Assembly (NCBI RefSeq): GCF_026898155.1
Contig: NZ_CP114029.1
Span: forward strand, 255,501-319,500
DNA: 64,000 nt
Origin: Jiella pelagia
GTDB taxonomy: Bacteria > Pseudomonadota > Alphaproteobacteria > Rhizobiales > Rhizobiaceae
Direction: 5' to 3'
A model generated the notes under the pieces. It had not been told where the DNA came from. It ran no database searches and saw nothing but the letters and a program-made list of their open reading frames with translations. Position 1 is the stretch's first letter, and each line of letters begins with the position of its first letter. The translations under genes and the position numbers were made by a program. Below, one piece after another: positions 358 through 64,000 of the stretch.

Positions 358-1410
358 GCGCCCGGGCCGGCCCAGCCGGTCAGCTGCAGGACAAAGGCGA
401 CGATGACGACCATCGCCAGCGACAGCGGCAGGAAGACCTTCCAGCCGAGGCGCATCAACTGGTCGTAGCGGTAGCGTGGCACGAAGGACTTGACCATCGC
501 GAACATGAAGAACACCAGCGCGACCTTCGCCAGGAACCAGATGACGCCAGGGACCCAGGTGAAGGGAACGAAGTTGAACGGCGGCAGCCAGCCGCCCAGG
601 AACAGGATGGTCGTCAGGCAGCACATCAGGGTGATGGCGGCATATTCGCCCAGCATGAACATCATGTACGGCGTCGAGCCATATTCAACCATGAAGCCCG
701 CGACCAGTTCGGACTCGGCTTCCGGCAGGTCGAAGGGCGGCCGGTTCGTCTCGGCCAGCGCCGAGATGAAGAACACGATGAACATCGGGAAGAGGCTCAG
801 CCAGTGCCAGTCGAGGAAGGTGTTCGGCAGGCCGACCATGGTTCCCACGCCGACCGACTGCGCGATGACGATGTCGGTGAGGTTGAGCGAGCCGACGCAC
901 AGAAGCACGGTCACGATGACAAAGCCGATCGACACCTCGTAGGAGACCATCTGCGCGGCCGAGCGGAGCGCGCCGAGGAAGGCATATTTCGAGTTCGACG
1001 CCCAGCCGCCCATGATGACGCCATAGACCTCGAGCGAGGAGATGGCGAAGACGTAGAGGATGCCGATGTTGATGTCGGCGATCACCCACCCATTGGCGAC
1101 CGGCACCACGGCGAAGGTCGCGAGCGCCAGCGTCACGGCGATCAGCGGCGCCAGAAGGAAGACGAACTTGTCCGAGGCTCGCCGGAACGACCGGCTCCTT
1201 CAGGACGAATTTCAACAGATCGGCAAAGGACTGGAAGAGACCGAACGGCCCGACGACGTTTGGGCCGCGCCGCAGCTGCACCGCCGCCCAGATCTTGCGG
1301 TCGGCGAGCAGGATGTAGGCGATCAGGACGAGCAGAACGACGAGGAACAGGACGCTCTGGGCGAGGATGATCAGCCCCGGAACGACATAGATGGAGAAGA
1401 AGTCGGTCAC
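354..1410 (-). CDS. nuoH: NADH-quinone oxidoreductase subunit H (one frameshift in the sequence as given)
   Basis: NuoH is the membrane subunit at the junction of the two arms of complex I and helps form the quinone channel. The N-terminal part (from 1410) has the conserved block [20 protein letters not shown] and [13 protein letters not shown]. The rest is in another frame with multiple membrane helices and [15 protein letters not shown], the NuoH signature near the quinone site. The frames switch at GAGGCTC (1174-1180). Deleting one base gives GAGCTC and joins KEPVVPAS to [11 protein letters not shown], a 351-residue protein of usual length. I regard the gene as intact and the extra base as an error. 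Confidence 0.92.
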
Positions 1411-1422
1411 GATCGCCCGTCC

Positions 1423-3499
1423 CTATTCCGCTGCTTGAAGTTGTTCGCCGGCGGCGAGCCGCGAGCATTCGGCCATCACCTTGGAAGCCCGGGCAATCGG
1501 GTTGGTCAGGTAGAAATCGCCGAGTTTCGATGCGAGTTGTCCCGTGCCGAGGGAGCTGGCCCGGTCCGCCAGGGCGAGGATACCGTCATGGCCGGCAGGC
1601 TCGACGCGGTCGCTGCGCATAAAGGCGTGCGCCTGATACAACTCGCGCTGCAACGCGGCAAGCGAGTCGAAGGGGAGCGTCTTGCCGAGAACAGCGGAAA
1701 GGGCACGGATGATCGCCCAGTCCTCGCGCGCATCACCCGGAGGGAAGGCGGCGCGGGACGAGACCTGCGCGCGGCCCTCCAGATTGACGTAAGTCCCGTC
1801 CTTCTCTGTATAGGCCGCACCCGGCAGGATGACGTCGGCACGGTGGGCGCCGCGATCACCGTGGGTGCCGACGTAGACGACGAACGGCCCCGGCGCGATC
1901 TCGGCCTCGTCGGCTCCGAGATTGAACAGGACGTCGACGCCGCCTGACGTCATCTCGGCGAAGGTCTTACCGCCCTCGCCCGGCGTAAAGCCGATGTCGA
2001 GGCCACCGACTCGCGATGCTGCGGTGTGGAGGACGTTGAAGCCATTCCAACCGTCGTCGAAGGCGCCGATCTCACGCGCCAACGCAGCCGCGGCCGCGAG
2101 GACTCCGGCGCCGTTCTCGCCCGAAATCGCGCCGGAGCCGACGATGATCATCGGCCGAGCGGCGTTCTTCAGCGCGTCGAAGAAGCCCTGGCTCGCCTTG
2201 GCGACATCGGTCAGTGTGTCGGTGCCGGCGCCGAGATAGGTATAGTCGTAGCGAAGGTTCGCATTCTCGCCGATGACGCCGATCGGGAAGCCGCCGAGCC
2301 GCCAGCGCTTGCGGATGCGGGCGTTGAGGACGGCCGCCTCGAAGCGCGGATTGGCGCCGATGATGAGCAGCGCATCGGCATCCTCGATGCCGGCGATGGT
2401 CGTATTGAAGAGATAGCTGCCGCGACCGTTAGCCGGATCGAGCTGCACGCCGTCCTGGCGGCAGTCGAGCGAGGTCGAGCCGAGACCCGCCATCAGCTGC
2501 TTCAGCGCATACATCTCCTCGACGGCGGCGAGATCGCCGGCGACAGCGCCGATCTTTTCGGGCGCGGCCTGCTCGACCTTGGCCTTGATGGCGGCGAAGG
2601 CCTCCTGCCAGCTTGCCGGCTGCAGCCTGCCGTCACGGCGAACGTATGGTTTGTCGAGTCGCTGGGTGCGCAGGCCGTCCCAGACAAAGCGGGTCTTGTC
2701 GGAGATCCACTCCTCGTTCACCGCCTCGTTGACCCGCGGCAGGATGCGCAGCACCTCGCGGCCGCGTGTGTCGACGCGGATCGCCGAGCCAACGGCGTCC
2801 ATGACGTCGATCGTCTGGGTCTTGGTCAGCTCCCACGGTCTTGCCTGGAAAGCGTAGGGCCGTGAGGTCAGGGCGCCAACCGGGCAGAGGTCGATGACGT
2901 TGCCCTGCAGTTCGGAGGTCATCGCCTGCTCGAGGAAGGTGGTGATCTCGGCATCCTCGCCGCGGCCGACGAGGCCGAGGCTCGGAGATGCCGGCGATTT
3001 CGGTGGTAAAGCGGACGCAGCGCGTGCAGTGGATGCAGCGCGTCATGATCGTCTTGACCAGCGGGCCGATATACTTGTCCTCGACGGCGCGCTTGTTCTC
3101 CCGGTAGCGGGAGGAGTCGACGCCGTAGGCCATCGCCTGATCCTGCAGGTCGCACTCGCCGCCCTGGTCGCAGATCGGGCAGTCGAGCGGATGGTTGATC
3201 AAGAGGAATTCCATCACGCCCTCGCGGGCCTTCTTCACCATAGGCGTGGTGGTGAAGACTTCCGGCAGCTGGCCCTCCGGTCCGGGGCGCAGGTCCCGCA
3301 CGCCCATGGCGCAGGAAGCGGCCGGCTTCGGCGGTCCGCCCTTCACCTCAACCAGGCACATGCGGCAATTGCCGGCGATCGACAGCCGCTCATGGAAGCA
3401 GAAACGCGGAATCTCGGCACCGGCCTCCTCGCACGCCTGCAACAGCGTGTAGTGATCCGGAACCTCGATCTCGTTGCCGTCGACTTTCAGCTTCGTCAT
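1423..3499 (-). CDS. nuoG: NADH-quinone oxidoreductase subunit G (one frameshift in the sequence as given)
   Basis: NuoG is the large iron-sulfur subunit of the NADH module. The N-terminal part shows the 2Fe-2S ligands ([15 protein letters not shown]), the His/Cys cluster [19 protein letters not shown], and the cluster CIHCTRC. The C-terminal part is the molybdopterin-oxidoreductase-like domain. Frames change at GAGGCTC (2977-2983). Removing one base gives GAGCTC and the expected sequence [16 protein letters not shown], with a total of 691 residues, the normal alphaproteobacterial length. I chose the ATG at 3499 because it follows the stop of the preceding gene at 3504. An in-frame start at 3520 would overlap that gene. 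Confidence 0.93.
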
Positions 3500-3503
3500 C
3501 TCG

Positions 3504-3755
3504 TCAGACTTTCTCTTCAAGGCGGGAGACGCGCTCTTCCAGCGTCTTCAACCGCTCCGCCACCGTGTCGTGGCGGACGTTTGCGTGCACGGCAGCGCCG
3601 GCGACCGTGTAGAGCGTCTCGTGGACATCCTCGAGCCGCTGGTCGATGTGATCCAGGCGTTTGCCGACGAGCCTGAACTGCTCGGAGTGCTCACCGAGCG
3701 TTTCCCGGATCTCCCGCAGGAGCTGAAGCACCAGATTGTCCGGCTCGTCCGCCAT
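3504..3755 (-). CDS. Small coiled-coil protein between nuoF and nuoG (83 aa)
   Basis: Unrecognised protein of 83 residues starting [16 protein letters not shown]. Almost the whole chain has heptad-like spacing of Leu/Val/Ile with charged residues (for example [14 protein letters not shown] near the middle and [15 protein letters not shown] at the end), so it is probably an extended coiled coil. It has no signal peptide or membrane segment. It ends four bases before the nuoG ATG and starts 11 bases after the nuoF stop, so it is co-transcribed with complex I genes. A role in complex I is not shown by the sequence. Confidence 0.65.
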
Positions 3756-3766
3756 CGTCCTTGCTC

Positions 3767-5070
<1,304 letters not shown>

Positions 5071-5071
<1 letters not shown>

Positions 5072-6558
5072 CACGCCTCTCCTTCACCCTCTCGGGACCC
5101 GGCACCCCCTCGGGAGCCGGCGTCCGATCCCGCCTGCAATTCCTTCGCCTGCTGGATCCACTGTTCGCGAACGGCGCGGCCCCGGAAGTTCAGATAGTCG
5201 TCGATCCAGATCAGCTCGGTCTCGCGCCATTCCGCGATCTGCCAGAAATGATACACGCCGAGATCGTTGAGCTTGCCCTCGATCACCGGCCCGATGCCGC
5301 GGACCTGCTGCAGATCGTCCTTCTCGCCCCGGGGCGCGTCGAGGAGATCCGCCGGCTTGTCGCCGGGCCGGGATTCCGCCTTCGTCTCCTCGGCCTCGCT
5401 TTCGAAATGATCGGCAAGCGCTGGGCCGGGCGTCACGTCGGAGGTTTCGGTACGCTCGCCTTCGGTCAAGTCGCCGTCCCGACGGCCGGTCAGCACCTCG
5501 GCCGCGGCCTCGCCCTCGCCGAGCCGCGGCGGCTGCCCGCCGGCTGCGTCGTCGAGCCGGCTGTGGTCAGGGATCACCGCATCCTCGGCCGCCGCCTCGG
5601 CGCGGCGAAGATCACCGCCGGTCTTCACGTCGACCTCGTCCGGGACGTTGCCCTCCTCGGCGTCGGTCGAGCCTTGCCGTGCGCCGCCTTCGCGGCCGGC
5701 ACCGGGCTTGTGGCCCTCGGCGGCGAGTTCGTCGCTCTCGCGGTCCTCCACGCTCTCGTCGACCTTGGCATCGGTAGCGGCGCCCGGCGTCGGCAGCGTC
5801 GGATCGGTCTGTTCGGATTCGGTATTCGGGCGGCCAGCCTCCGATGGCGGCGTCGAAACGGTCTGGCCGGCGCCCTCCCCTTGCGGCGCGGCGCCGTTGG
5901 CCGGTCCGTGGCCGGCTTCCTGCTTCTGCGCGGCGATCAGATCGTCGTAGTCCTCGGTCAGCGACGTCAGGCCGCCGAGCGGGGCGGACAGGTGGCGGCC
6001 GTTCTGCGGCCCGGGCTTCACCTCGCCGCGACGCCCTGCCTCGAAGAGGTCGATGATCTCTTCGAGACGCTCGGGCGTCAGATCCTCGTAGGTGTCCTCG
6101 AAGATCATCACCATCGGCGCATTGACGCAGGCGCCGAGGCACTCGACCTCTTCCCAGGAGAGCGTCCCCGCCTCGTTGCGATGGAACTGCTCGGCATGGA
6201 TCTTCGAACGGCAGACGGCCTTCAGGTCCTCGGCGCCGCGCAGCATGCAGGGCGTCGTGCCGCAGACCTGGACATGCGCCCTGGTGCCGACCGGATTGAG
6301 CTGGAACTGCGTATAGAAGGTCGCGACCTCGAGCACGCGGATCAGCGGCATGTCGAGCATCTGCGCGACATGTTCGATGGCCGGCTTGGTCACCCAGCCG
6401 TCCTGATCCTGGGCGCGCATCAGCAGCGGGATCACGGCGGACTGCTGGCGGCCTTCGGGATATTTCCTGATCGTCGCTTCAGCCCAAGCGGCGTTCTCTT
6501 CGGTAAACGCGAAGCCGGCTGGTTGCACGGCCTCTTCCGCGAGACGTCTGACAGACAT
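5071..6558 (-). CDS. nuoE: NADH-quinone oxidoreductase subunit E with long acidic linker and C-terminal helix-hairpin-helix-like domain
   Basis: The first 170 or so residues are the thioredoxin-like NuoE fold with the four 2Fe-2S ligands C99, C104, C140 and C144 (CGTTPC and CLGAC). Residues about 190-400 form a low-complexity linker rich in Glu, Asp, Gly and Ala. Residues about 405-480 ([21 protein letters not shown], then [16 protein letters not shown]) resemble the helix-hairpin-helix-like domain found at the end of many rhizobial NuoE proteins. At 495 residues it is much longer than the roughly 170 of E. coli NuoE and long even for this group. Electron transfer from FMN to cluster N1a is the expected role. 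Confidence 0.93.
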
Positions 6559-7243: not shown

Positions 7244-7279
7244 CCGTTCAACCCGCAAATTGCGGCATCGGCCGAAACC

Positions 7280-8471
7280 TCAGCGGTCGACTTCGCCGAA
7301 GACGATGTCGAGCGTACCGAGAATGGCCGAGACGTCCGCCAGCATATGCCCTTTGCACATCACGTCCATCGCCTGCAGATGCGGGAAGCCGGGCGCGCGG
7401 ATCTTGCAGCGATACGGCTTGTTGGTGCCGTCCGAGACCAGGTAGACGCCGAACTCGCCCTTCGGCGCCTCGACCGCAGCGTAGACCTCGCCCTCCGGTA
7501 CGTGGAAGCCTTCGGTGTAGAGCTTGAAGTGGTGGATGAGCGCTTCCATCGAGCGCTTCATCTGGCCGCGTTTCGGCGGCACCAGCTTGCCGTCGGTGGC
7601 GGAGATCGGGCCTTCCTTCTCGGTGCTCAGGAGGCGCTCGATGCACTGCTTCATGATCCGCACCGATTCCCGCATCTCGACGACGCGGATCAGGTAACGG
7701 TCGTAGCAGTCGCCGTTCTTGCCGATGGGAATGTCGAATTCCATCTCGTCGTAGCACTCGTAGGGCTGCGACTTTCTGAGATCCCACGCCGCGCCAGAGC
7801 CGCGCACCATGACGCCAGAAAAGCCCATCGCCCACGCGTCCTCGAGCGCGACGACGCCGATGTCGACGTTGCGCTGCTTGAAGATGCGGTTCTCGGTGAG
7901 GAGGCCTTCGATGTCGTCGCAGACATCCAGGAACGGGTCGCACCAGGCGCCGATGTCCTCGACGAGCTGCGTCGGCAGGTCGACGTGAACCCCGCCCGGC
8001 CGGAAATAGGCGGCATGAAGGCGCGAGCCGGAGGCACGCTCGTAGAAGACCATCAGCTTCTCGCGTTCCTCGAAACCCCAGAGCGGCGGGGTCAGCGCGC
8101 CGACGTCCATCGCCTGGGTGGTCACGTTGAGGAGATGCGAGAGAATCCGGCCGATCTCAGAGTAGAGGACCCGGATCAGCTGGCCGCGCTTCGGCACGGT
8201 GACGTCCGCCAGCCGCTCGATGGCGAGGCAGAAGGCGTGTTCCTGGTTCATCGGCGCGACGTAGTCGAGGCGGTCGAAATAGGGAATCGCCTGGAGATAG
8301 GTCTTGTGCTCGATCAGCTTCTCGGTGCCGCGATGGAGCAGCCCGATATGCGGGTCCACCCGCTCGACATTCTCCCCGTCGAGGCTCCAGCACGAGGCGC
8401 AACACTCCGTGGGCGGCGGGATGCTGCGGACCGAAGTTGATGTTGAAGTTGCGGACGTCGATCTCAGCCAT
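7280..8471 (-). CDS. nuoD: NADH-quinone oxidoreductase subunit D (one frameshift in the sequence as given)
   Basis: NuoD (49-kDa subunit) forms the quinone-binding site of complex I with NuoB. The start [21 protein letters not shown] is diagnostic, as are [16 protein letters not shown] and the end [18 protein letters not shown]. The frame breaks at GAGGCTC (8381-8387). Taking out one base gives GAGCTC and the expected VLELDGE. The repaired protein has 396 residues, the usual length in rhizobia. The start overlaps the end of the GFA-type gene by eight bases. Confidence 0.94.
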
Positions 8472-12492: not shown

Positions 12493-13717
12493 CCCCGCCC
12501 CGGCCAAACCCTTTGCTCGCCGCCGTCGCCGCGCCGCCGATCGCCGAGGCCGGCAAGTGGGCCTCCGCCTATGACGGGCGGCACGGGACCCTGATCAACT
12601 GCAGCCAGGCGGTGCCGAATCATCCGCCGCCAGCGGAATTTGCCGCCCGACTCGCAGAGGCCGCAGGCAGCCCGGCAGCCGCCCGCTATGGCGATATCCT
12701 CGGCGACCAGGAGGCTCAGACACGCCTATGCCGGCCATGTCTCGGGCATTTACGGTGCCCCGATCGACGCCCGCCAGATCGCCATCACCTCCGGCTGCAA
12801 CCAGGCCTTCTTCGCCGCAATGATCGCCGTCGCCGGGGCGGGCGAGAACGTCGTCCTGCCGACGCCATGGTACTTCAATCACGAAATGACGCTCGATATG
12901 CTGGGGATCGAGGCACGGGCCCTCGCGACGACGGCCGAGGCCGGCTTCCGGCCCGATCCGGAAGCGTTCGAGGCGCTCATCGACGGCAGGACGCGGGCGC
13001 TCGTCCTGGTCAGCCCGAACAATCCGACCGGCGCAATCTACCCGCCGCAGCTCATCGCCGAGCCTCTTCCGGATCTGCGTGCGGCGCAGTCTCTATCTCG
13101 TCCTCGACGAGACCTATCGCGACTTCCTGCCGCCCGAGGCGGGCGCGCCGCACGCGCTGTTTGCCGATCCACGCGCCGAAACCAACCTCGTCGGCCTCTA
13201 TTCCTTCTCGAAAGCTTACGCGATTCCCGGTCACCGCATGGGCGCGATGATTGCCGGCGGGACGATTCTCGCCGAGATCGAGAAGGTGATCGACAGCCTG
13301 CAGATCTGCGCCCCCCGCCCCGCCCAGGCGGCGCTGCCTTGGGCGATCGAGGCGCTGGCGGAATGGCGCGCAGACAACGCCGCGACGATCGCCTCAAGGG
13401 CGCGGCTGTTCGAAAGAATGATCGCCGACGTTCCCGGCTGGGAGCTGGACCAGATCGGCGCTTATTTCGCCTATCTCCGCCATCCCTGGCCGGATCGTCC
13501 GGCCGCTGCCGTCGCGGCCGATCTCGCCCGCCATCTCGGCATCCTCGCTTTGCCCGGCTCGTTCTTCGGGCCCCACCAGGAGAAGCATCTGAGGATCGCC
13601 TTCGCCAACGTGACGGAGGACGGCATTTCCGAGATCATGCGGCGGCTGGCGCTCGGCTTCCCTGCCCTGCCGACGAACCAGACAGACGACGAGAAAGGGC
13701 CTTCGATCCATGACTGA
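12489..13717 (+). CDS. PLP-dependent aminotransferase, class I/II (two frameshifts in the sequence as given)
   Basis: Three frames together give one fold-type I aminotransferase of about 408 residues. The visible features are SGCNQAFFAAMIA and PTPWYFNHEM (PLP phosphate and ring contacts), VSPNNPTGAIYP, LVLDETYRDFL (Asp to pyridine N) and the catalytic Lys in YSFSKAYAIPGHRMG. The frame breaks at GAGGCTC (12711-12717) and GAGCCTC (13060-13066). Deleting one base in each restores GAGCTC and the sequences GDQELRHAYAGH and IAELFRICVRRSLYLVLDE. It overlaps the gene before by four bases and the next by eight. The amino donor is unknown. Confidence 0.88.
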
Positions 13718-17928: not shown

Positions 17929-19210
<1,282 letters not shown>

Positions 19211-20075: not shown

Positions 20076-20618
20076 GCCACATCCCTCGCCTTCTCGGCGC
20101 CATTCGCCTTGGCGTCACGGGCGGGCTCACCGCCATTGTCGGAGTCGTTGGGGTCAGACGTCGTGGACTGCGACGCCCCGGTCGCTTTTGCTGTCGCCGT
20201 CGCAGGTTCGCCTTCGGCCTTTGCCGGTTCCGCCTCGGTCGCACCGTTCTTGACCGGTTCGCCCTCGGGCTTCGGGCTCTCCGACGAACTCGGCACCTTA
20301 GGCTCCGGCGCTGCAGTGGCGCTGTTGAGCGAGGAGCGGATCTCTTCGCCGATCGCCTTCATCGGGCTCATGGCGTCGCGAATCGAGCGGCGCGGATCAA
20401 GCGAGCGAACGTCGTCGATGCCCTTGCGGACGTCGTCGAGCCTCGGCCTCCTTCAGCGCATCGTCGAACTGACGACGGAAGTCGCCGGCCATCGACCGGA
20501 ACTGCTTCATCACGCGCCCGAATGTGCGCAACATCCCCGGCAGATCCTTGGGGCCAACGACGACCACAAGGATTACGGCGATCACCAGAATTTCGGACCA
20601 GCCGAGATCGAACAGCAC
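20072..20618 (-). CDS. tatB: Sec-independent translocase subunit TatB (one frameshift in the sequence as given)
   Basis: The N-terminal membrane helix is followed by the amphipathic helix (FDLGWSEILVIAVILVVVVG, PKDLPGMLRTFGRVM), typical of TatB. The first frame stops soon after. At GAGCCTC (20438-20444) removal of one base restores GAGCTC and continues as ALKEAELDDVRKGIDDV into the downstream frame, giving 181 residues with a polar Ala/Glu/Ser-rich tail. TatB bridges TatC and TatA. The start is 97 bases after tatA; the end overlaps tatC. Confidence 0.92.
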
Positions 20619-30632: not shown

Positions 30633-31469
30633 TTCTTGGCGCTCGCCACCGCTCCCGTGACCGGCATGCTCTGCTGGTCGACGAAGGCCTGGGCTTCGCG
30701 CCGGACATCTTCGCTGGCGACCGAAAACGTCTCTTCCTGCAACGGGCGGATCCATTGCTGGTCGCCGATGCCGGCCTCCTTCAGCGCCATCGTCAGCATT
30801 GCGAGGCCACGCACCGGCTCGGGCCGAAGCGAGATCTTCTTGCCGTCGAAGAGCAGGTAGCCGAGCAGCGCCTCGGCGCCGACATGGCCCTTTTCGCTGG
30901 CAAGGTTGAGCCACCGCGCCGCCTGGCGGGGATTGGCGCGACCGCCCTCGCCGTTGAGCAGCATTCGGCCGAGCCTCGAATTGCGCCTTCGCATCGCCGA
31001 AGAAAGAGGCGGCGTGGAAGTAGAACTGCCGCGCCCGCGGCAGGTCCGGCGTCACCGGGCTGCTGGCGATCCCGAGCCGCAGATAGTCCGCCAGGGCCAC
31101 GACGGCGCTCGCAACATAGGCGGCATTGGAATAGTTGCCCGTATCCTCGTCCTGATCGCGAACGATCTGCTCGAAGATCTTGAACGCCTCATAGTCGTTC
31201 TCGGGCACGCCGTCGCCCTCGGCATACATCTTGCCGAGCTTCCAGCGGGCCCCCGGATGTCCCTTGTCGGCGGCATAGCGCAAGGCCTCGAAGGCCTCGA
31301 GCTTTTCGCCGCGCTTGTAGGCCTTGAACCCGAACGAGAACAGCTCGAGCGGCCCGGCATCGGGATTGACCTGCGCGTCCGGATCGAGCGCCAGGGCGCC
31401 CTTTCCGGCGGACAGGAACGCTGCCGAAGCCAGCGCGAGAGCCAGGAGAGTGCGCTTAAATGTCTGCAT
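30629..31469 (-). CDS. Exported Sel1-repeat protein (one frameshift in the sequence as given)
   Basis: A repaired protein of 279 residues with a signal peptide ([20 protein letters not shown]) and at least three Sel1/TPR-like helical repeats, for example [20 protein letters not shown], a second near residues 160-190 and [21 protein letters not shown]. Frames change at GAGCCTC (30971-30977). One base less restores GAGCTC and [17 protein letters not shown], exactly a Sel1 consensus. Sel1 proteins act as adaptors in the envelope; ExoR of rhizobia is a relative. It overlaps the ilvD end by 14 bases, so it is co-transcribed. Confidence 0.87.
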
Positions 31470-39314: not shown

Positions 39315-39610
39315 CGATCTAGCTCCCTGAGTGAGCGCTTCGCCACTTTATGTAGGACGAAACTGGCGGGATGGCAAAGAACGGCCACCCCGATGGCAAG
39401 CCAACCACTCCCGGAGCTCAACAGGATGGTGGCCGGTATCGACAGACCACCGATGAGGAAAAGTCCGATCGCGACGCCATTGAGATACGCCGCCTGCAGC
39501 TTGATCTGCTCGCGTTCACCTTCGGTCTTGTCCCGCGCCGATGGGACGCCGTCCGAGCTGCTGTCCAGCTGGCGGCCTTCCCCGCCACCGGTCTCGTCTT
39601 CCCCCTCCAC
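39311..39610 (-). CDS. Small two-helix membrane protein (99 aa) downstream of ftsW
   Basis: An unrecognised 99-residue protein. Residues 1-38 are polar and Glu/Gly/Ser-rich; two hydrophobic helices follow (AAYLNGVAIGLFLIGGLSI near 39-60 and WLAIGVAVLCHPASFVLHKV near 70-90), then a short basic end. It begins four bases after the ftsW stop and overlaps the 46-residue gene, so ftsW and both small genes form one transcript. Small membrane proteins of this size can be toxins, holins or regulators; nothing here decides. Confidence 0.6.
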   Translation of the reverse strand: MEGEDETGGGEGRQLDSSSDGVPSARDKTEGEREQIKLQAAYLNGVAIGLFLIGGLSIPATILLSSGSGWLAIGVAVLCHPASFVLHKVAKRSLRELDR

Positions 39611-43273: not shown

Positions 43274-44754
43274 TTGGTCTCTCCCGAGGTCTTTTCCGCC
43301 ATCGCGGATCCGCTCTCGGCGACGGGCGCCTTAGCCTCGGTCTGATCTTCGTGGCGTGACAGCAGAGTTTCGACCAATCGGGAAAATCCAATACTCTTCG
43401 AGGCCTTCACCATGACGACGTCGCCGCCCGCCATGGTGCCTTCGAGATCGGCGAGAAGCTCGTCATTGTTCTCGTGCCAGCGGCAGTCGACCAAGTTCGC
43501 CAGGGCCACGTCCAGCGCCTTCATCTCTTGCCCGGCGAGAAATACCATATCGACCTTCGCCGCAAGGACGTGGTCCTTCAGCGCGGCGTGCAGCTCGCTC
43601 GAAGACGTGCCGAGCTCCAGCATGTCGCCGAGGACGGCGATCCGCCGTGCACCTTTGCCCGGCTCGGCCCGCGACAGGACGTCCAGGGCAGCGCGCATCG
43701 AGGCGGGATTGGCGTTGTAGCTGTCGTCGACGAGCGTGACGCTGCCGCCGGAAAGAGCCAGCTGGTGGCGGGCGCCCCTGCCCTTGACCGCGCGCCAACC
43801 CGCCAGGGCCGAGGCGACCTTGTCGACGTCGGCGCCAATCCGATGGGCCGCGCCGAGGACGGCGAGAACGTTCTGCGCCATATGACGCCCGGGTGTCGCC
43901 AGCGAAAAACGCAACGGCTCGCCGGCGATCTCCGCGTCGACCTTGGCGCCCTCGCGCGTCGCCTCATAGGCTATCAGCCTGAAATCGGCGCCGGCCCCCT
44001 CGCCGAACGTCATGATATTGGCGACGCCGGCCTTGCGGGCATAGTTCGCAAGGAGGCCGCATTTCTCGTCGTCGCCATTGAGGATCGCGGTGCCGCCCGG
44101 CACCACGCCCTCGAAGATCTCGGCCTTCGCCTCGGCGATCTCGTCGAGGTCGCGGAAATGGCCGAGATGAGCAGGAGCAATCAGCGTGACGATAGCGACA
44201 TGCGGCCGCACCAGACCCACCAGCGGGCGGATCTCATCCGGATGGTTCATGCCGATCTCGAAGACGGCGTAGCTCGTCTCCGCCGGCAGAAGCGCCAGCG
44301 ACAGCGGCACGCCCCAATGATTGTTGAAGGAGGCGGCGCTCGCATGGACGCTGCCAACGGCAGAGAGTCCGTGGCGCAACGCTTCCTTGGTGGTGGTCTT
44401 GCCGACGCTGCCGGTCACCGCGACGATCTTCGCCTTTGACCGCGCGCGAGCGGCTTCGGCCAGCCGCGACAGCGCCTTCAGAACGTCGTCGACGACCAGC
44501 ATCGGGATCTGCACGCGGCCGAGCGCCGGCAGCTTCTGCTCCGCGACGACCGCGATGCCCGCGCCGCCGCGCTGGGCCGTCGACAGGAAGTCATGACCGT
44601 CGAACCGCTCGCCCTTGATGGCGAAGAACGCTTCGCCCTGTCGCATGGTGCGGGTATCGATGGATATGCCCGTCACGCCCTCGGGCAGATCGCCCATCGG
44701 CCGCGCCTGCATCGCGTCGATGAGGACACCCGTTTCCCAAAGCAATTCCGTCAT
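43270..44754 (-). CDS. murF: UDP-N-acetylmuramoyl-tripeptide--D-alanyl-D-alanine ligase
   Basis: A 494-residue Mur ligase adding D-Ala-D-Ala. The P-loop is [14 protein letters not shown], followed by [21 protein letters not shown] and the family block [27 protein letters not shown] includes the only uninterrupted GAGCTC hexamer I found in the window (43612-43617), and the frame is intact there. The gene overlaps murE by four bases. Confidence 0.96.
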
Positions 44755-49406: not shown

Positions 49407-49876
49407 TATTCCGGTGTCTCGATGGAAGCCGGAGCCCCCCGATTGCCAGTCAGCTTTTCCCTCAGCCGGTCGCGCAGCGCCCCGCGCACCGCCTCGAAAC
49501 GATCCGGCTCCCAGAGCTGAAACGTATCCTTGAGACCGACGAAGGTGACGCGGTCCGCAATCCCCGTATGGGACCGAATGAAATCGGACATCAGGATACG
49601 CCCCTCTGAATCCGTCTTCAGATAGGCCCCGTCGCCATAGGCGTAGAGCGCCATCTCCTGATAGAGATCGCTGAACGGATCGAGCGCCTCCATCTGCTTC
49701 TCGAAATGCTCCATCATCTCCGGCCCGCCGACATTGATTGCCGGCTGGGAGAGCGAGCGCATCGCGAACAGCTCGCGAATGCCGCGTCGCTCGATCACCT
49801 GGCGAAACTGCGATGGAACGGAGACCCGCCCCTTGGAGTCGACGTTGTGGACGTAGCTTGAGAGAAAGCGGTCCAT
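49406..49876 (-). CDS. mraZ: Transcriptional regulator MraZ
   Basis: A 156-residue protein of two AbrB-like MraZ repeats. The DNA-binding signature is seen twice: [14 protein letters not shown] and [14 protein letters not shown]. MraZ binds repeated TGGG boxes in front of its own operon and represses it in E. coli. ATG 49876 is chosen over TTG 49882. It is the first gene of the mra/dcw operon; four TGGG boxes lie about 200 bases upstream. Confidence 0.95.
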
Positions 49877-55958: not shown

Positions 55959-55970
55959 GATAGTCAAACT

Positions 55971-56466: not shown

Positions 56467-58261
56467 TCAGGAAAATTTTGCGACCGCTGCGTCGCTGATC
56501 CTGAAGCCGACCGCTTGTTCCCCGCGAAAATGATCCGCTGAAAGGCTGCCGGCGACGTGCAGCGGCGCCGCATGGTTCGACATCAGCAGCTCGCCGAGGC
56601 TCGCCTCCCGCCGCCTTGAACGCGATCGCCCGCATCGTCATGCCATCCTCGCCCTTGAGGCGCACCGCGACATGGCCATTGCCGACGATTCGCGCATCGA
56701 CGATCCTGTGACGCGCCACTGCCAGAAGCGGCGGCTCATGTCCGGAGCCGAACGGTCCTGCTTTCTCCAGCATCTCGTAGAGCGGCATGGTGAGGCCCGC
56801 GGCGCTGACCGCACCGTCGATCCGCAGCGCATCGCTCATCCGCGCAACGGCAACGTCGCTCTCAGCCGCCGCCTCCAGAAACTGCCGAAGCTCGCCCAGC
56901 CGTTCGCGGCGAACGGTCAGCCCCGCCGCCATCGCGTGGCCACCGCCCTTTTCGATCACCCCCTCGTCTAAAGCCCGCCGGACGATGCGCCCGAGGTCGA
57001 CGCCGATCACCGAGCGCCCGGAGCCGGAGCCCTTGCCGCTCTGATCGAAAGCGATCGCGAAGGCCGGGCGGCGGTGACGCTCCTTCAGGCGGGCGGCGAT
57101 CAGCCCGACGATACCGGGATGCCAATCATTCGAAGCGGCGACGAGCACCGGAGGGCCCTCGCCCGCGCCGATCTCGGCAGCAACCTCGGCGTCGGCTTCG
57201 GCCAGCATCCGCGCCTCCATCGCCTGCCGCTCCTGGTTCAGCGTGTCGAGCTGTTCGGCGATGGCCTCGGCTGCCGCTTCGTCGTCGAGGCATAGAAGCC
57301 TGCTGCCGAGGGCGGCATCGCCGATCCGTCCGCCGGCGTTGATCCGGGGCCCGAGCAGAAAACCGAGATGGCCGGAACGCACCGGGCCGGAGAGCCGAGC
57401 GACCCGGCAGAGCGCCTTCAGCCCGACATTGTCCTGGCGGCGCATGACCGCGAGCCCCTGGACGACGATGGCACGGTTGAGCCCCTTCAGCGGGACAACG
57501 TCGCAGACCGTCGCAAGAGCAACGATGTCGAGCAGCCGCATCAGGTCGAGCGGCGGCTGCGAGGAGCGGCCGCGAAGCTGCCGCTGGACCGCAACGAGGG
57601 TCATGAAGACGACTCCCGCCGCGGCCAGATAGCCGAGGCCGGAAAGATCGTCCTGACGGTTCGGGTTCACGAGGGCGACGACCTCCGGGATCGCGCTGCC
57701 GGTCTGGTGATGGTCGAGGACGACGACGTCGAGGCCGCGGCTGCGGGCATGGTCGAAGGTCTCGAAGCTCGACGTGCCGCAATCGACCGAAACCAGAAGG
57801 GTGGCGCCAGCGTCCGCGAGTTCGTCGACGGCCTGCGGGTTCGGACCGTACCCCTCGGTAATACGATCGGGTATGCGGACGACCGGATCTAGCCCGTAGT
57901 GGCTGAGAAAGCGCGAAACCAGGGCGGCGGAGGCTGCGCCGTCGACGTCGTAGTCGCCGAAGATCGCCACCTGTTCGCGCCGCAGGATCGCTTCTGCGAG
58001 GCGCTCGGCGGCCGCGTCCATATCGGTCATGACGGATGGATCGGGCATCTCGTGGCGCAGCTTCGGGTCGAGGAAGCGCTCGGCGAGGCTCGCCTCGACG
58101 CCCCGCGCCGCCAGAACCCGCGCGACGACATCGGGCAGCCCGAGCTTCTGCGACATCGCGAGGGCGTTCGCCTCGCTTCTAACGTCCAGCGCGCTGACCC
58201 AGCGTCGGCCCGTCACGGACCTCTCGACGCCCAGAAAATGTTGGCTTGTGGTGGGAGGCAT
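56467..58261 (-). CDS. recJ: Single-stranded-DNA-specific exonuclease RecJ (one frameshift in the sequence as given)
   Basis: A DHH/DHHA1 exonuclease, repaired length 597 residues. Motifs: IFGDYDVDGAASAALV (motif I), SVDCGTSSFE, DVVVLDHHQTG (DHH), and DHHA1 GRSVIGVDLGRIV, KGGGHAMAAGLTV near residue 440. The frame breaks at GAGGCTC (56596-56602) close to the 3' end. One base less restores GAGCTC and leads to AAGGELGELLMSNHAAPLHV, ending at 56467 instead of running on to 56444. ATG 58261 is chosen as the family-like start; the frame extends to 58321. Confidence 0.92.
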
Positions 58262-58372
58262 GTCGTCTCGAAACATCGGCCCGGGCCGAGCAGAGGCCAC
58301 GAGCCACAGAGTGTTCATCACAAGGACCTCTGCCCCCGCTTCACGGAGGCTTGTCCCGAGCGTCAGGCTGGC

Positions 58373-59377
58373 TCAGCGCGGATGCAGGGCGCCTTCGGCC
58401 AGGTCGCTGACGTGGTGATGCGCCCGCACCTCGCGGATGGTGCGCGAGAAGGAGCGCATCAACAGCGTATGGGTCGTCACACGGTCGCGGTAGAAGCGCA
58501 CGCCGTCGAGGAGGTTCCCGTCGGTGACGCCGGTCGCAGCGAAGATCACGTTGCCCGAGGCCATTTCCTCGGCCGTGTAGATCTTCTCAGGATCGCCCAC
58601 GCCCATCCGCTCGGCCCGGGCGCGCTTCTCGATGGTGTTGAGCTGCAGCCGCCCCTGCATCTGTCCGCCGGTGCAGCGCAACGCCGCCGCCGCCAGAACG
58701 CCTTCAGGGGCACCGCCGATGCCCATATAGATGTCGATGCCGGTCTCCTCCGGGTCAGTGGTGTGGATCACCCCCGCCACGTCGCCGTCGCCGATCAGGC
58801 GGATCGCGGCGCCGGCCTCCCGCACGGCGGCGATCAGTTGGGCATGCCGCGGCCGGTCGAGGATGCAGGCGGTGAGATCGGCGACCTTGACCCCCTGGGC
58901 CTCGGCCAGCGCCGCGAGATTTTCTGCCGGCGAACGGCGAAGGTCGACGATGCCTTTGGGATAGCCCGGACCGACGGCGATCTTCTCCATATAGACGTCT
59001 GGCGCGTTCAAGAGGCTGCCGCTTTCGGCCATGGCCACCACCGCCAGCGAGTTCGGCAGGTTCTTGGCGCAGACCGTCGTGCCCTCCAGCGGATCGAGAG
59101 CGATGTCCACCGGAACGCCGCCCCGGCCGACCCTCTCGCCGATGAACAGCATCGGCGCTTCGTCGCGTTCGCCCTCGCCGATCACCACCGTGCCATCGAT
59201 CTCGATCTGATTGAGCGCCTGCCGCATCGCATCGACAGCCGCCTGGTCGGCCGCTTTCTCGTCGCCGCGGCCCCGCAGCTTCGCTGCGGCGATCGCTGCC
59301 TGCTCGGTCACGCGCGCGAGTTCCAGGGAGAGGACGCGGTTCAAATTCTCGCCAAATTCGGCCATGGTTCCGATCAT
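58373..59377 (-). CDS. glpX: Class II fructose-1,6-bisphosphatase
   Basis: A 334-residue GlpX-type phosphatase of gluconeogenesis. Metal- and substrate-binding blocks VVIGEGERDEAPMLFIGE, ALDPLEGTTVCAKN and GIGGAPEGVLAAAALRC are typical. I chose ATG 59377 because GGGAGG lies nine bases upstream; an ATG at 59398 is also in frame but has no such site. Located between recJ and homoserine dehydrogenase, an order common in rhizobia. Confidence 0.93.
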   Translation of the reverse strand: MIGTMAEFGENLNRVLSLELARVTEQAAIAAAKLRGRGDEKAADQAAVDAMRQALNQIEIDGTVVIGEGERDEAPMLFIGERVGRGGVPVDIALDPLEGTTVCAKNLPNSLAVVAMAESGSLLNAPDVYMEKIAVGPGYPKGIVDLRRSPAENLAALAEAQGVKVADLTACILDRPRHAQLIAAVREAGAAIRLIGDGDVAGVIHTTDPEETGIDIYMGIGGAPEGVLAAAALRCTGGQMQGRLQLNTIEKRARAERMGVGDPEKIYTAEEMASGNVIFAATGVTDGNLLDGVRFYRDRVTTHTLLMRSFSRTIREVRAHHHVSDLAEGALHPR

Positions 59378-59751
59378 CTGATTCGCCTCCCGCTTCATTG
59401 CGGTATCGGTCCGGGGAGCGCCGGCTTTTGGACCGATATGACGTCGTTCGCGGGCCAGTCGCTTCCCGATTCGAGAAGAGTAGCCCGAAAGTCATGTTGC
59501 CCGCCACGGTTGGCGAGCGGCTGTTCATATGCGCCGGTCGCGTGTCGGTCCGATGTCAGCGGAAAAGCCGCCCTCCGCCGGCTCAGCCTCATCGGTCATG
59601 AGCCGAAGAGCGTGCGAGATTCCGTACAGGGTGGCTGACCGCATTCGGGCGCCATCAACGAATGTGCGCAGCCGGCCACGCGATCGGTTTCCGTAACCAT
59701 CGCGGGCGGGACAGCGCCTGCCGGACCGGACGTCCGGCCGGATCGGCTATC
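59378..59751. other. Gap between the homoserine dehydrogenase gene and glpX
   Basis: About 370 bases. I see no credible gene; short frames on both strands are Arg- and Ser-rich. The glpX promoter is expected here, with the ribosome-binding site GGGAGG close to 59386-59391. Confidence 0.4.
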
Positions 59752-61056
59752 TCAGTCGAGGTCCTCAATGCGGATCATCTGCGGCTCGCCGGAAAGGTGC
59801 CCATCGCGCGACAGGCCGTCCAGCGCGGCTCGGATCGCCGCCTCGGTGGTGTCGTGGGTGACGAGAACCACCGGTGCGGTGCCCTCGCCGGCCTTGCGAT
59901 CCGCCTTGCGCTGAACGATCGATTCAAGCGAAATGCCATTCTCCGCCATGCGACTGGCGATCGAGGCGAAGGCGCCGACCCGGTCGAACACCGCAAGGCG
60001 GATGTAGTAGCCGCCCTCGTGAGCGCGCATGCGGGCGCGGTGATAGGGCTGCAGCCGCGACGGCGGCAGGCCGAGCGTCGGGGGCACGAAGCCGCCGGCG
60101 ACGTCCATGATGTCCGAAAGAACCGCCGAGGCGGTCGCCGCACCGCCGGCACCAGGCCCGGCGAGCAAAATCGAGCCGAGAAGATCGGAATCGATCGCCA
60201 CCGCATTGGTGACGCCGTCCACCTGGGCGAGCGACGAGCGCGCCGGGATCATCGCCGGATGGACCCGCTGCTCGATGCCGCTGTCCGTCCTCAGTGCGAC
60301 GGCGAGAAGCTTGATCCGGTAGCCGAGTTCGGCCGCCGCGACGATGTCGGCGATGGTGATCTTCGAGATGCCCTCGATGAAGATGCTCTCGAGCGAGATC
60401 TCGGTTCCGAAGGCGAGCGAGGTCAGGATCGCCAGCTTGTGGGCCGCATCGAAGCCGCCGATGTCGAAGGTCGGATCCGCCTCGGCATAGCCGAGCGCCT
60501 GGGCGTCCTTCAGACAAGCATCGAAGCTGATGCCCTCCTTCTCCATACGCGTCAGTATGTAATTGCAGGTGCCGTTGAGAATGCCGTAGACGCGGCCGAC
60601 CTCATTGGCGGACAGCGCCTCGCGCATGGTCTTGATGACGGGGATGCCGCCGGCGACCGCGGCCTCGAAGAGGATCTCGGTGTCGTTCTCCGCGGCAAGC
60701 CGCGCCAGCGCCACGCCATGATGGGCAAGCAGCGCCTTGTTGGCGGTGACGACGGGGATGCCGCGACGCAGCGCCGCCTCGACCGCCTGGCGCGCCACGC
60801 CGTCCGATCCACCGATCAGCTCGACGAAGGCGTCGATCTCGCCTTTTTCGGCAAGCTCGACCGGATTGTCGAACCAGGCCATGCCGTCGGCATCGAAGCC
60901 ACGACCGCGGCTCCTGTCGCGGGCCGAGATCGCGGTGATTCGGATCGATCGCCCGACCCTCTCGGCGAGAAGCTCGGCCTTTCGTTCGATCAGCTGCGCC
61001 ACCTTGGCGCCGACGGTGCCCAGCCCGGCAATGCCGAGCCGCAATTCGCTTTTCAT
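59752..61056 (-). CDS. hom: Homoserine dehydrogenase with ACT domain
   Basis: A 434-residue NAD(P)-dependent enzyme reducing aspartate semialdehyde to homoserine (threonine and methionine synthesis). Rossmann motif LGIAGLGTVGAKV, VTANKALLAHHG, the block GILNGTCNYILTRME and GYAEADPTFDIGGFDAAHKLAIL (catalytic Asp and Lys) are seen. The last 85 residues are an ACT domain (YYIRLAVFDRVGAFASIA), pointing to feedback control by threonine. It is a separate enzyme, not fused to aspartokinase. Confidence 0.95.
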   Translation of the reverse strand: MKSELRLGIAGLGTVGAKVAQLIERKAELLAERVGRSIRITAISARDRSRGRGFDADGMAWFDNPVELAEKGEIDAFVELIGGSDGVARQAVEAALRRGIPVVTANKALLAHHGVALARLAAENDTEILFEAAVAGGIPVIKTMREALSANEVGRVYGILNGTCNYILTRMEKEGISFDACLKDAQALGYAEADPTFDIGGFDAAHKLAILTSLAFGTEISLESIFIEGISKITIADIVAAAELGYRIKLLAVALRTDSGIEQRVHPAMIPARSSLAQVDGVTNAVAIDSDLLGSILLAGPGAGGAATASAVLSDIMDVAGGFVPPTLGLPPSRLQPYHRARMRAHEGGYYIRLAVFDRVGAFASIASRMAENGISLESIVQRKADRKAGEGTAPVVLVTHDTTEAAIRAALDGLSRDGHLSGEPQMIRIEDLD

Positions 61057-61188
61057 GCCAAACTCGTCTCAAGGCCGCAGGCCCGGACGCGCATCCGGAA
61101 ACCATCGTGCGGCGTAACAATCGCTGGCGAGCCCAGCCCGGCCTCCGGATGGAGACCCCCGCCCGTCAGTCTCGCGCCGAGCGGTGCC

Positions 61189-62406
61189 TTAGGAGCGCGC
61201 TCGCAGCGAGACGACGTTCTGCCCCGCTTCGGCGCCGGACGCAAGAAAGCGCCGGATGTTGCGGGCGGCCTGGCGGATGCGATGCTCGTTCTCGACGAGC
61301 GCAATGCGCACGTGGTCGTCGCCATGCTCGCCGAAGCCAATGCCCGGGGCGACGGCAACCTCCGCCTCCTCGATCAAAAGCTTCGAGAACTCCAACGACC
61401 CGAGATGCCGGAAGGCCGGCGGGATCGGCGCCCAGGCAAACATCGTCGAGGCCGGTGGCGGCACGTCCCAGCCCGCCCGGCCGAAGGATTCGACCAGAAC
61501 GTCGCGGCGCCGGCGATAGATGGATCGAACCTCGTCGATCGCCGTCTCGCCGCCGTTCAGCGCCGCCGTCGCGGCGACCTGGATCGGCGTGAAGGCGCCG
61601 TAGTCGAGATAGGACTTTACCCGTGCGAGCGCGGCGATCAGACGCTTGTTGCCGACGGCAAAGCCGATGCGCCAGCCGGGCATCGAGAAGGTCTTCGACA
61701 TCGAGGTGAACTCGACCGCGACGTCCATCGCCCCCTCGACCTGGAGGATCGAGGGCGGCGGCACGTCGTCGAAATAGATCTCGGCATAGGCGAGGTCGGA
61801 CAGGACGATGATCTCGTTCTTCTTTGCGAAGTCGACGACCTCGCGATAGAAGTCGAGATCGGCGACGTAGGCCGTCGGATTGGACGGGTAGTTCAGGATG
61901 ATGGCGATCGGCTTGGGAATCGAATGGCGGACCGCCCGGTCGATGGCGGCGAAGAAGTCCCGGTCTGGCTTGGCCGGAATGGCGCGGATCGTGCCGCCCG
62001 CCATCAGGAAGCCGAAGGCATGGATCGGATAGGTCGGGTTCGGGCAAAGGACGACGTCGCCAGGCGCGGTGATCGCCTGGGCCATGTTGGCGAAGCCCTC
62101 TTTCGAGCCGAGCGTTGCCACTACCTCTGTCGCCGGATCGAGGGTCACGCCGAAGCGACGCTTGTAATAGCCCGCCTGGGCGCGTCTCAGCCCGGCGATC
62201 CCCTTGGAAGCCGAATAGCGGTGGGTGCGCTGGTCCTGGATGACCTCGCAGAGCTTGTCGACGACGAATTGCGGCGTCGGCAGGTCGGGATTGCCCATGC
62301 CGAGATCGATGATGTCGGCGCCGCGCGCCCGGGCCGTCGCCTTCAGCCGATTGACTTCTTCGAAGACGTAAGGCGGCAGACGCCGGACTTTGTGAAATTC
62401 TTCCAT
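61189..62406 (-). CDS. AlaC-type PLP-dependent aminotransferase
   Basis: A 405-residue class I/II aminotransferase. HRYSASKGIAGLRRA, LCPNPTYPIHAFGFLMAGG, LNYPSNPTAYVADL, VLSDLAYAEIYFD and the catalytic Lys in TSMSKTFSMPGWRIGFAVG are present. This form is annotated in rhizobia as AlaC, alanine or LL-diaminopimelate aminotransferase; substrate cannot be fixed by eye. Transcribed together with homoserine dehydrogenase (132-base gap). Confidence 0.9.
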   Translation of the reverse strand: MEEFHKVRRLPPYVFEEVNRLKATARARGADIIDLGMGNPDLPTPQFVVDKLCEVIQDQRTHRYSASKGIAGLRRAQAGYYKRRFGVTLDPATEVVATLGSKEGFANMAQAITAPGDVVLCPNPTYPIHAFGFLMAGGTIRAIPAKPDRDFFAAIDRAVRHSIPKPIAIILNYPSNPTAYVADLDFYREVVDFAKKNEIIVLSDLAYAEIYFDDVPPPSILQVEGAMDVAVEFTSMSKTFSMPGWRIGFAVGNKRLIAALARVKSYLDYGAFTPIQVAATAALNGGETAIDEVRSIYRRRRDVLVESFGRAGWDVPPPASTMFAWAPIPPAFRHLGSLEFSKLLIEEAEVAVAPGIGFGEHGDDHVRIALVENEHRIRQAARNIRRFLASGAEAGQNVVSLRARS

Positions 62407-62481
62407 TTTTCTCGTCCTCCGGCACCATGCCGGCCAATGATATTACGAATGAAACAATGCGCGGGCCTATGCGGCCTGGGA

Positions 62482-62937
62482 CTACTGGCCCGCCTGAATC
62501 TCACGAAGAACGTCTTCCGGCGTCCGGCTCGGCGTCGCCCCGGTGCCGACGCTGACGGAGGCCTGCTCCGGCTTTCGTGCAAGGGCGGCCTCGACATCCT
62601 CGGCCTGCTGGCGCTTCAGGCGGTTCATCCGGGCGATCGCGGCTTCGTAGCTGCGGTTCGAAACGCCGCCCCGTCGCCGGTTCGCGAGAGCTGCCGCCCG
62701 CTGCTCCTGGGCCGCGACCGCGGCATCGTCGACCTGCGGCGCCGCGACGTTGGGATAGGCTCCGAGCAGCGGATAACCGTCCGGCCCGAGCCGCTGGCCG
62801 GAGCGGCCATCCGGCGCAACGGGCTGATAGGCGACGTTCTGGACCGACATCGGCGCATCATAGGCGGATTGGCAGCCGGAAACAAAGGCAGCCATTGCGG
62901 CTGCCGCCACCGCTCGAATCGCGATCCGTCCGATCAT
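62482..62937 (-). CDS. Small lipoprotein of unknown function
   Basis: A 151-residue protein with a lipoprotein signal (AAAAMAAFVSGC, Cys22). The mature part has a Gly/Pro/Tyr-rich stretch (GRSGQRLGPDGYPLLGAYPN), then a charged helix (SYEAAIARMNRLKRQQAEDV). No domain recognised. Rhizobial genomes often hold a lipoprotein gene at the divergent start of phaC; that memory is not checked here. Confidence 0.7.
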   Translation of the reverse strand: MIGRIAIRAVAAAAMAAFVSGCQSAYDAPMSVQNVAYQPVAPDGRSGQRLGPDGYPLLGAYPNVAAPQVDDAAVAAQEQRAAALANRRRGGVSNRSYEAAIARMNRLKRQQAEDVEAALARKPEQASVSVGTGATPSRTPEDVLREIQAGQ

Positions 62938-63150
62938 CCCGTTATGCCCTCTTCACGAAGCGGCCATCCGCACAATCCGCTTCTCATCCGCGACGTCTGT
63001 GTCATATCCCACAGGTAAGGCGATTACAAAGAACACCACGCCGCTTTAATGTCGCCGTTGCAAGAAAAGCGCGTGAAGCCGATGCCACCGGTCAGCAGGA
63101 GCTGCGCGCAGAACGCCGCCTCGCTGCCCGAAGCCCAGGGAGGACTGACC

Positions 63151-64000
63151 ATGGCCACCAAGACGCCGAATCCGGAAGCCGAAAAGTCGACCAAGACGGC
63201 GAGCGGCCCGTTCGACGCGCGCGCCGAGGAGTTCGTCGTCAAGGATCCCGAAGCTTTCGGGCTCAACATGGCGCGCATGCTGGAACAGATCGGCAAGGCC
63301 GCCGCCGCCTGGGTGGCGCCCCGTGAGAAGGGCGACTTCGTCGATGGCGGGCCCGTCCAGATTTCCGAGGTCGTCCAGACGCTGTCGCGCGTTTCGGAAT
63401 ATTGGATGACCGATCCGGCCCGGGCAATGGAGGCCCAGACCAACCTCTTCGCCAGCTACATGGGCATCTGGAACAACTCGATCCGCAGGATGGCGGGCGA
63501 GATGCCGGAGAGCCCGGTGGATGCGCCAAAGGGGGACAAGCGCTTCGCGGCCGCCGACTGGAACGAGAACCTTTTCTTCGACTTCGTCAAGCAGACCTAT
63601 CTGCTGACCACCCGCTGGGCCGACGACCTCGTCGAACGCGCCGACGGGCTCGATCCGCATACGCGGCAGAAGGCGGCCTTCTACGTCCGGCAGATCTCCA
63701 ACGCGCTGGCTCCCTCGAACTTCGTCATGACCAACCCCGAGGCTCTACCGGGAGACCGTCGCTTCGAATGGCGAGAACCTCGTCAAGGGCATGAAGATGT
63801 TCGCCGAGGACATGGCAGCGGGCCATGGCAATCTGAAGCTGCGCCAGGCCGACTACACGAAATACCAGGTCGGCCGCGACATGGCGGTGACGCCGGGCAA
63901 GGTCGTCGCGGAGAACGAGGCTCTGCCAGATCATCCAGTATGCGCCGAAGACCGAAACGGTGTTCAAGCGCCCGCTGATGATCGTGCCGCCCTGGATCAA
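63151..64000 (+). CDS. phaC: Class I polyhydroxyalkanoate synthase, N-terminal part (two frameshifts; runs off the window)
   Basis: PhaC polymerises hydroxyacyl-CoA to storage polyester. Seen are the N-terminal domain blocks DPARAMEAQTNLFASYMGIW, DKRFAAADWNENLFFDFVKQ, and FYVRQISNALAPSNFVMTNPE. The frame breaks at GAGGCTC 63739-63745 and again at GAGGCTC 63917-63923. One base less at each restores GAGCTC and gives TNPELYRETVASNGENLVKG and VAENELCQIIQYAPKTETV, leading to KRPLMIVPPWI. The catalytic Cys lies beyond the window. ATG 63151 has GGGAGG upstream. Confidence 0.93.

Follow-up and report, generated by a model that had tools for sequence, protein, structure and literature searches.

The frameshifted genes of the window

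The window, the whole stretch of 64,000 nucleotides of Jiella pelagia DNA that was analysed, carries three complex I genes (nuoH, nuoG and nuoD), an aminotransferase gene, serS, tatB, an exoR-like gene, recJ and phaC, and the reading frames of these nine genes are interrupted at eleven sites (Table 1). The gene names were confirmed with NCBIfam and Pfam models, and the gene described as Sel1 is of the ExoR type, with a score below that model's cut-off. A sequence-only reading had placed eleven frameshifts at the words GAGGCTC and GAGCCTC (together GAGSCTC), and comparison with the congener G002 bears out every one of them. All nine orthologues are intact in G002 by protein alignment, the eleven sites are each one base too long relative to the G002 genes, and the alignments of the G002 proteins pass from one frame of the window to another, with the junction midpoint 0–3 bases from the motif centre at each site. 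The repaired lengths given in that reading for NuoH, NuoG, NuoD and SerS are normal, being those of the G002 proteins, and beyond the breaks the window sequence is still 65–97% identical to the congener protein. Positions within 5 bases of a GAGSCTC centre make up only 0.38% of the window, and the chance of all eleven breaks falling there is about 2e-27. DNA alignment does not resolve the base at 12711, and the frame model described below does not resolve the tatB site and marks coding on one side only at the recJ site.

Table 1. Interrupted and unaltered GAGCTC-type sites of the window, with the comparison that locates each. Extra bases are given as presumed false.
Feature	Positions	Strand	Evidence
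nuoH, GAGGCTC, presumed false +1	1174..1180	-	G002 NuoH 351 aa, frames -2/-3 join 1177/1178; G002 has GAGCTC
nuoG, GAGGCTC, presumed false +1	2977..2983	-	G002 NuoG 691 aa, frames join 2979-2981; G002 has GAGCTC
nuoD, GAGGCTC, presumed false +1	8381..8387	-	G002 NuoD 396 aa, frames join 8385/8386; G002 has GAGTTC
aminotransferase gene, GAGGCTC, presumed false +1	12711..12717	+	G002 protein 488 aa, frames join between 12707 and 12715
same aminotransferase gene, GAGCCTC, second presumed false +1	13060..13066	+	frames join 13062/13064; G002 has GAGCTC
serS, GAGCCTC, presumed false +1	18778..18784	-	G002 SerS 426 aa, frames join 18780-18782; G002 has GAGCTC
tatB, GAGCCTC, presumed false +1	20438..20444	-	G002 TatB 166 aa, frames join 20440-20442; G002 has GAGCTC
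exoR-like (Sel1 repeat) gene, GAGCCTC, presumed false +1	30971..30977	-	frames join 30975/30976; G002 has GAGTTC
GAGCTC left unaltered	39414..39419	.	word count
GAGCTC left unaltered	43612..43617	.	word count
recJ near 3' end, GAGGCTC, presumed false +1	56596..56602	-	G002 RecJ 642 aa, frames join 56598-56600; G002 has GAGTTC
phaC, GAGGCTC, presumed false +1	63739..63745	+	frames join 63737-63741; GAGCTC in G006, GAACTC in G002
phaC, GAGGCTC, second presumed false +1	63917..63923	+	frames join 63919-63921; GAACTC in G002

The same reading had found no frameshift away from the motif, and this holds for the stretches conserved in G002. When the window was scanned with all G002 ORF products of at least 100 aa, 195 of which had hits, 15 frame junctions emerged, eleven at the sites of Table 1 and four others that we attribute to antisense or overlapping ORFs running across gene borders. 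A further break placed by the frame model near 49440 is false and sits within an uninterrupted 571-aa alignment. The window holds 22 copies of GAGSCTC and two of GAGCTC, of which about 38 would be expected from dinucleotides. The scan with G002 ORF products found no frame break at the other eleven GAGSCTC copies, and three of these (792, 9462 and 41398) are also GAGSCTC in a relative.

Frame breaks and word counts across the genome

Reading frames were followed with a 3-periodic order-4 model in 644 kb of this genome and 342 kb of two congeners; a model of codon usage alone had placed breaks near the motif, but it often chose the antisense strand after the break and was replaced. Among 229 GAGSCTC sites in the 644 kb, 66 shift the frame by +1, none by -1, 74 stay in frame and 89 are unclassifiable, while in the two congeners none of 53 sites is shifted. 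The controls, eight word sets on other palindromes, GAGSCCC/GGGSCTC and the reversed motif, gave 0–4 +1 shifts among 6–370 sites each. Seen from the side of the breaks, 78 lie outside gene junctions in the 644 kb, with 63 at GAGSCTC and four at GAGACTC (67 at GAGNCTC), and the 11 off the motif include one model error; in the 342 kb of the congeners there are three breaks of this kind, all of them away from the motif. The description of the inserted base as G or C stands for the window, but elsewhere it is sometimes A (T on the other strand), as the four GAGACTC breaks show.

Sorted by gene strand and inserted letter, the shifted sites number 17, 17, 16 and 16, the even split that an error at a palindrome should produce. 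Flanking sequence matters: where a 5' G precedes the word on either strand, GAGCTC was misread at 17 of 31 sites, compared with 53 of the 59 sites that lack such a G (Fisher p 3e-4). The error is not an automatic consequence of the site, since 20 of the 90 coding GAGCTC that could be classified were read correctly.

Counting the two words genome-wide, as the sequence-only reading had proposed, gives 353 GAGCTC and 2175 GAGSCTC, against 702–1945 and 443–1076 in nine congeners. Relative to the two congeners, no 6-mer is more depleted than GAGCTC (z -10.2) and no 7-mer more enriched than GAGCCTC/GAGGCTC (z 5.6). We estimate that about three quarters of the true GAGCTC sites were misread, giving some 1,025–1,150 false insertions, and undoing the shift returns the estimated GAGCTC density to the congener range. 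The motif-specific sequencing error proposed from the window is strongly supported by the frame analysis against two congeners and the word counts against nine, with further backing from strand symmetry, flank dependence and the intact orthologues, and breaks beyond the window share the preference for the motif.

A broader disturbed motif, GRGCYC, was rejected, since +1 shifts are not in excess at GAGSCCC/GGGSCTC or at GGGSCCC, and GAGCCC and GGGCCC occur about as often as expected. Another genome, G015, was considered as a second case from its GAGSCTC count (183, control 87), yet none of 15 sampled sites shifts (11 in frame, four ambiguous), which rules it out as far as sampled. In G012 the count is 53, with a control of 30.

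A candidate methyltransferase

A search of the genome for methyltransferases, also suggested by the sequence-only reading, yielded a single C5 cytosine methyltransferase, an intact gene for 432 aa on the minus strand (G000:C1:1356652-1357947), which would be the candidate for GAGCTC specificity. It matches PF00145 (2.1e-56) and contains FTGAGG, GGPPCQPFS, ENV and GNAVP, which we take to be the catalytic motifs of C5 methyltransferases. Encoded adjacent to it is an MTaX1 protein (PF20296), three homologs of which share, without variation, a D-x(13)-E-C-K segment resembling PD-(D/E)xK by eye; a comparison of the MTaX1 protein with PDB sequences gave no significant match. The nuclease-like gene of the locus is itself broken at the motif. 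From its gene content, the locus looks like a restriction-modification system with a C5 methyltransferase and a putative nuclease.

M.SacI is a C5 methylase, and 5-methylcytosine at the inner C of the site blocks SacI. The present case would share both the target site and the C5 chemistry of the SacI system, but the neighbouring protein is of the MTaX1 type and the RE_SacI profile (PF09566) matched none of 11 genomes, being equally silent in 14 control genomes. The 'SacI specificity' suggested earlier can be taken to mean the site alone and not the enzyme.

A C5 methyltransferase is absent from three of the six congeners searched, and those of the other three are 27–32% identical to a Sphingomonas homolog that is itself 81% identical to the enzyme of this genome. 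Genomes with 52–81% identical methyltransferases do not consistently avoid GAGCTC, nor is GAGSCTC clearly in excess in them. Palindrome avoidance was examined as a test of specificity in four of the six genomes with 52–61% identical enzymes (those sampled being 56–61% identical), and the mixed results made it uninformative: G221 strongly avoids GAGCTC, but CTCGAG, GGGCCC and others too, G312 avoids CTCGAG most and GAGCTC fourth, and G399 and G073 show no special GAGCTC avoidance.

Origin of the frameshifts

We consider it highly probable that the frameshifts are an assembly artefact, most likely from nanopore miscalling at a modified motif, with the candidate C5 methyltransferase likely responsible. 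The frameshifts would then be consensus errors absent from the organism's DNA, with one extra central base, nearly always G or C, at roughly three in four GAGCTC sites. The cell would modify the palindrome, with 5-methylcytosine at the inner C of each strand as the probable mark, and a base caller untrained on this context would read the modified GC core one base too long; such misreading would be systematic, so that depth could not correct it. The likely modifier would be the sole C5 methyltransferase, beside its nuclease-like MTaX1 neighbour. That GAGCTC is modified in the cell seems likely from the analogy with published nanopore errors, together with the presence of a single C5 methyltransferase gene in surroundings that resemble a restriction-modification system.

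Consensus errors that nanopore sequencing makes at specific motifs with modified bases have been published (PMC10687267, PMC11610573, PMC6591954, PMC12392509), and this case would be a further instance, unusual in consisting of insertions and not mismatches. Counting against the reading, the published errors considered here are mostly mismatches; indels were not an error source in the strains of PMC10687267, and the words insertion and indel are absent from PMC11610573. In the Listeria Modpolish study (PMC10687267), as here, systematic consensus errors number more than a thousand per genome and keep to a lineage-specific motif, and four of five strains have a lineage-specific methyltransferase system, but those errors are mismatches at GCAGC or GCTGG, and here single bases are inserted at GAGCTC and frames are broken. 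The Dcm-motif errors (PMC6591954) are alike in that, under an untrained model, 5-methylcytosine in a short palindrome lay behind most consensus errors, although the motif was CCWGG. The GRGCYC 5-methylcytosine motif of P. freudenreichii (PMC11649196), where native DNA is uncut by ApaI or BanII, includes GAGCTC, but it is broader, and the portion of that report used here describes no insertion artefact; in our genome GAGCCC and GGGCCC are undisturbed, though they may carry the modification and still be read correctly.

An artefact of base calling or polishing at GAGCTC that has nothing to do with modification, the caller being poor at this hexamer in a GC-rich context, is unlikely in our judgement. 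In its favour, the assembly data taken alone describe a motif-specific, flank-dependent error, and the methyltransferase is a candidate for GAGCTC. Yet if the unmodified hexamer itself defeated the caller, many nanopore genomes should be damaged. The shift is seen in none of nine congeners, nor at the sampled sites of the distant G015 with its raised count, which counts weakly since these may not be nanopore genomes, and of the two nearest congeners G002 lacks a C5 methyltransferase and G006 has a distant one only.

Genuine insertion of the bases in vivo, for instance through a blunt GAG^CTC nuclease cut and end joining that adds one base, would suit the position of the added base exactly at the palindrome dyad and the few insertions of A instead of G or C. 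We regard this as very improbable, because some 75% of sites would have been hit, with serS, tatB and three complex I genes lost at once, and sequence after the breaks is still conserved; flank dependence would need a separate explanation, and by our estimate undoing the shift restores the GAGCTC density of congeners. Least credible of all is a programmed motif at which ribosomal or transcriptional slippage rescues frameshifts that are real. Motif and direction are always identical, as slippage would have it, but the motif contains no slippery run, the 74 in-frame sites among the 140 classifiable coding GAGSCTC would then be misread, the extra base is missing from a congener that encodes the same proteins, and errors are equal on both gene strands.

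Miscalling at a modified GAGCTC, our preferred reading, has a wider form that we hold to be an even bet: a GAGCTC-specific restriction-modification system other than SacI (the C5 methyltransferase and an MTaX1 nuclease) would mark the site genome-wide, its 5-methylcytosine would be readable as one-base insertions, and public assemblies could be searched for methylation motifs not yet known, with no need of reads. The disturbed, probably modified motif is recoverable from the assembly alone through the words at frame breaks, and a scan of such words in public long-read genomes could flag bad assemblies and predict methyltransferase targets. In this genome, several hundred genes likely look broken though intact, which would mislead studies of gene loss. 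Marker completeness is 84.97%, against 93–100% in nine congeners, a shortfall that the false breaks probably explain.

Frameshifts at GAGCTC

The eleven false frameshifts in the window belong to a set of roughly a thousand spurious insertions in the J. pelagia assembly; that the shifts are an assembly artefact is close to certain, and that GAGCTC is modified in the cell is likely. The sequence-only reading had placed all eleven at this one palindrome, read with an extra central base as GAGSCTC (S = G or C), and the comparison with congener G002 bears this out: when translated, intact G002 genes were aligned to the window, two frames joined at the motif at 11 of 11 sites. In the DNA alignment, G002 has a word one base shorter opposite ten of these sites (five GAGCTC, three GAGTTC, two GAACTC). 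The window holds 22 GAGSCTC and 2 GAGCTC. Among the broken genes, whose names are backed by family scans, are serS, tatB and three genes for subunits of complex I; past each break, protein identity to the congener is 65–97%.

Features located in the window and in sampled loci
Feature	Position	Observation
GAGSCTC, natural	window 792, 9462, 41398	GAGSCTC opposite too in the relative's DNA alignment
Frameshift site	window 12711	G002 counterpart word could not be settled in the DNA alignment
Off-motif break	near window 49440	rejected as model error
MTaX1 gene, first break	L061:3108	frame broken around GAGCCTC; presumably an artefact
MTaX1 gene, second frame change	L061:2648-2660 (C1 ~1358 kb)	off motif, near C-terminus
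Helicase-like ORF, then N6/N4 DNA methylase	L105:56-2430	prophage pair by eye
Two adjoining C5 methyltransferase genes	L095:452-4165 (relative genome)	beside a divergent MTaX1 gene

The genome (5.95 Mb, three contigs; G+C 65% in the sampled part) was sampled with a frame model over 644 kb, comprising 264 kb that take in the window and its surroundings and nineteen 20-kb stretches, one of them on each smaller contig. Of 229 GAGSCTC sites, 66 shift the frame by +1 and none by −1, 74 are in frame and presumably natural, 88 are non-coding or ambiguous, and one marks a strand change, while in 342 kb of the two nearest congeners, which served both as sole training set and as comparison, none of 53 sites shifts (38 keep the frame and 15 are ambiguous). 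No control word exceeded four +1 shifts, and GAGWCTC shifted by +1 at 4 of 20 sites. The smaller contigs contribute little (one shift in 20 kb of C2, none in 20 kb of C3). The genome-wide count proposed earlier gave 353 GAGCTC and 2175 GAGSCTC (the reversed control word of GAGSCTC occurs 984 times), compared with 702–1945 and 443–1076 in nine congeners, where GAGSCTC stands at 0.93–1.12 of its control. Among six more distant genomes, GAGSCTC is raised in G015 (183 vs. 87 for the control) and G012 (53 vs. 30); G015 was rejected as a second case, as 0 of 15 sampled sites were shifted.

With the natural load either scaled from the control ratio and subtracted, or derived from the 66:74 split, we estimate some 1,025–1,150 false insertions, partly outside genes and sometimes more than one per gene, or about 75% of ~1,400–1,500 true GAGCTC sites; among classifiable coding sites of the sample, 70 of 90 are misread. 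Corrected in this way, GAGCTC density falls inside the congener range, and thus gives no indication of avoidance of the site by the organism.

Base-calling error or mutation

A search for frame breaks blind to the motif, setting aside switches that coincide with a stop codon (a rule that also dropped two motif events), left 78 of 191 switches in the sample, 113 having been set aside: 63 at GAGSCTC, 4 at GAGACTC and 11 elsewhere (seven +1, four −1). One of these 11, the break near window 49440, is a model error. Breaks off the motif are rare; in the congeners' 342 kb, 83 of 86 switches were set aside and 3 were left. The breaks are evenly spread over the two gene strands and over the inserted letters. 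In all, C was inserted 34 times, G 32 times and A 4 times; judging by the four GAGACTC breaks (loci L075, L081 and L086), A (T on the opposite strand) occasionally takes the place of G or C as the added base. Misreading is less frequent where a 5′ G flanks the site on one strand or the other (17 of 31 sites, compared with 53 of 59 lacking it). The even split, the flank dependence, the sites left in frame and the rarity of off-motif breaks, together with the presence of serS, tatB and complex I among the broken genes and the protein identity retained past the breaks, fit a base-calling error at the palindromic core and not mutation.

Motif-specific nanopore errors from modified bases are established (PMC10687267, PMC11610573, PMC6591954, PMC12392509). 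A 5mC motif including GAGCTC is known (PMC11649196), and marine viral genomes are reported to carry methylated cytosine at GAGCTC (PMC9516812). Literature searches, mostly outside subscription journals, turned up no account of GAGCTC insertions.

A candidate methyltransferase

By PF00145, the genome encodes exactly one C5 methyltransferase, an uninterrupted reading frame of 432 aa that contains the motifs typical of the family. The other methyltransferases matched are a CcrM-like PF01555 protein with RAMA, a PF01555 protein adjoining a helicase-like gene, and two PF02384 matches, of which one is strong and the other weak. Since CcrM recognises GANTC and type I systems recognise bipartite sequences, the best candidate among them for marking GAGCTC is the C5 enzyme, though a good candidate only. 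A homolog (81% identical) is in an uncultured Sphingomonas MAG, where an intact MTaX1 protein of 403 aa lies upstream; the J. pelagia counterpart is the twice-broken, nuclease-like gene beside the methyltransferase at L061. Its second frame change may reflect genuine loss of the putative nuclease or a further error; if the putative nuclease is truly inactive, the methyltransferase would be an orphan. MTaX1 is described as a domain of several restriction-modification systems, possibly discriminating modified DNA (PMC10853773).

Genomes with homologs of the C5 methyltransferase share no consistent GAGCTC signature. One of them, G221, of the same order as J. pelagia (sampled loci L106–L115), severely avoids many palindromic hexamers, with observed/expected ratios of 0.03 for CTCGAG, 0.04 for GGGCCC and 0.10 for GAGCTC. 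In another, G312 (loci L126–L135), the observed/expected ratio of CTCGAG in the sampled loci is 0.09 and the whole genome has 159 copies, against 3587 in its genus mate G364, which suggests restriction pressure on CTCGAG there.
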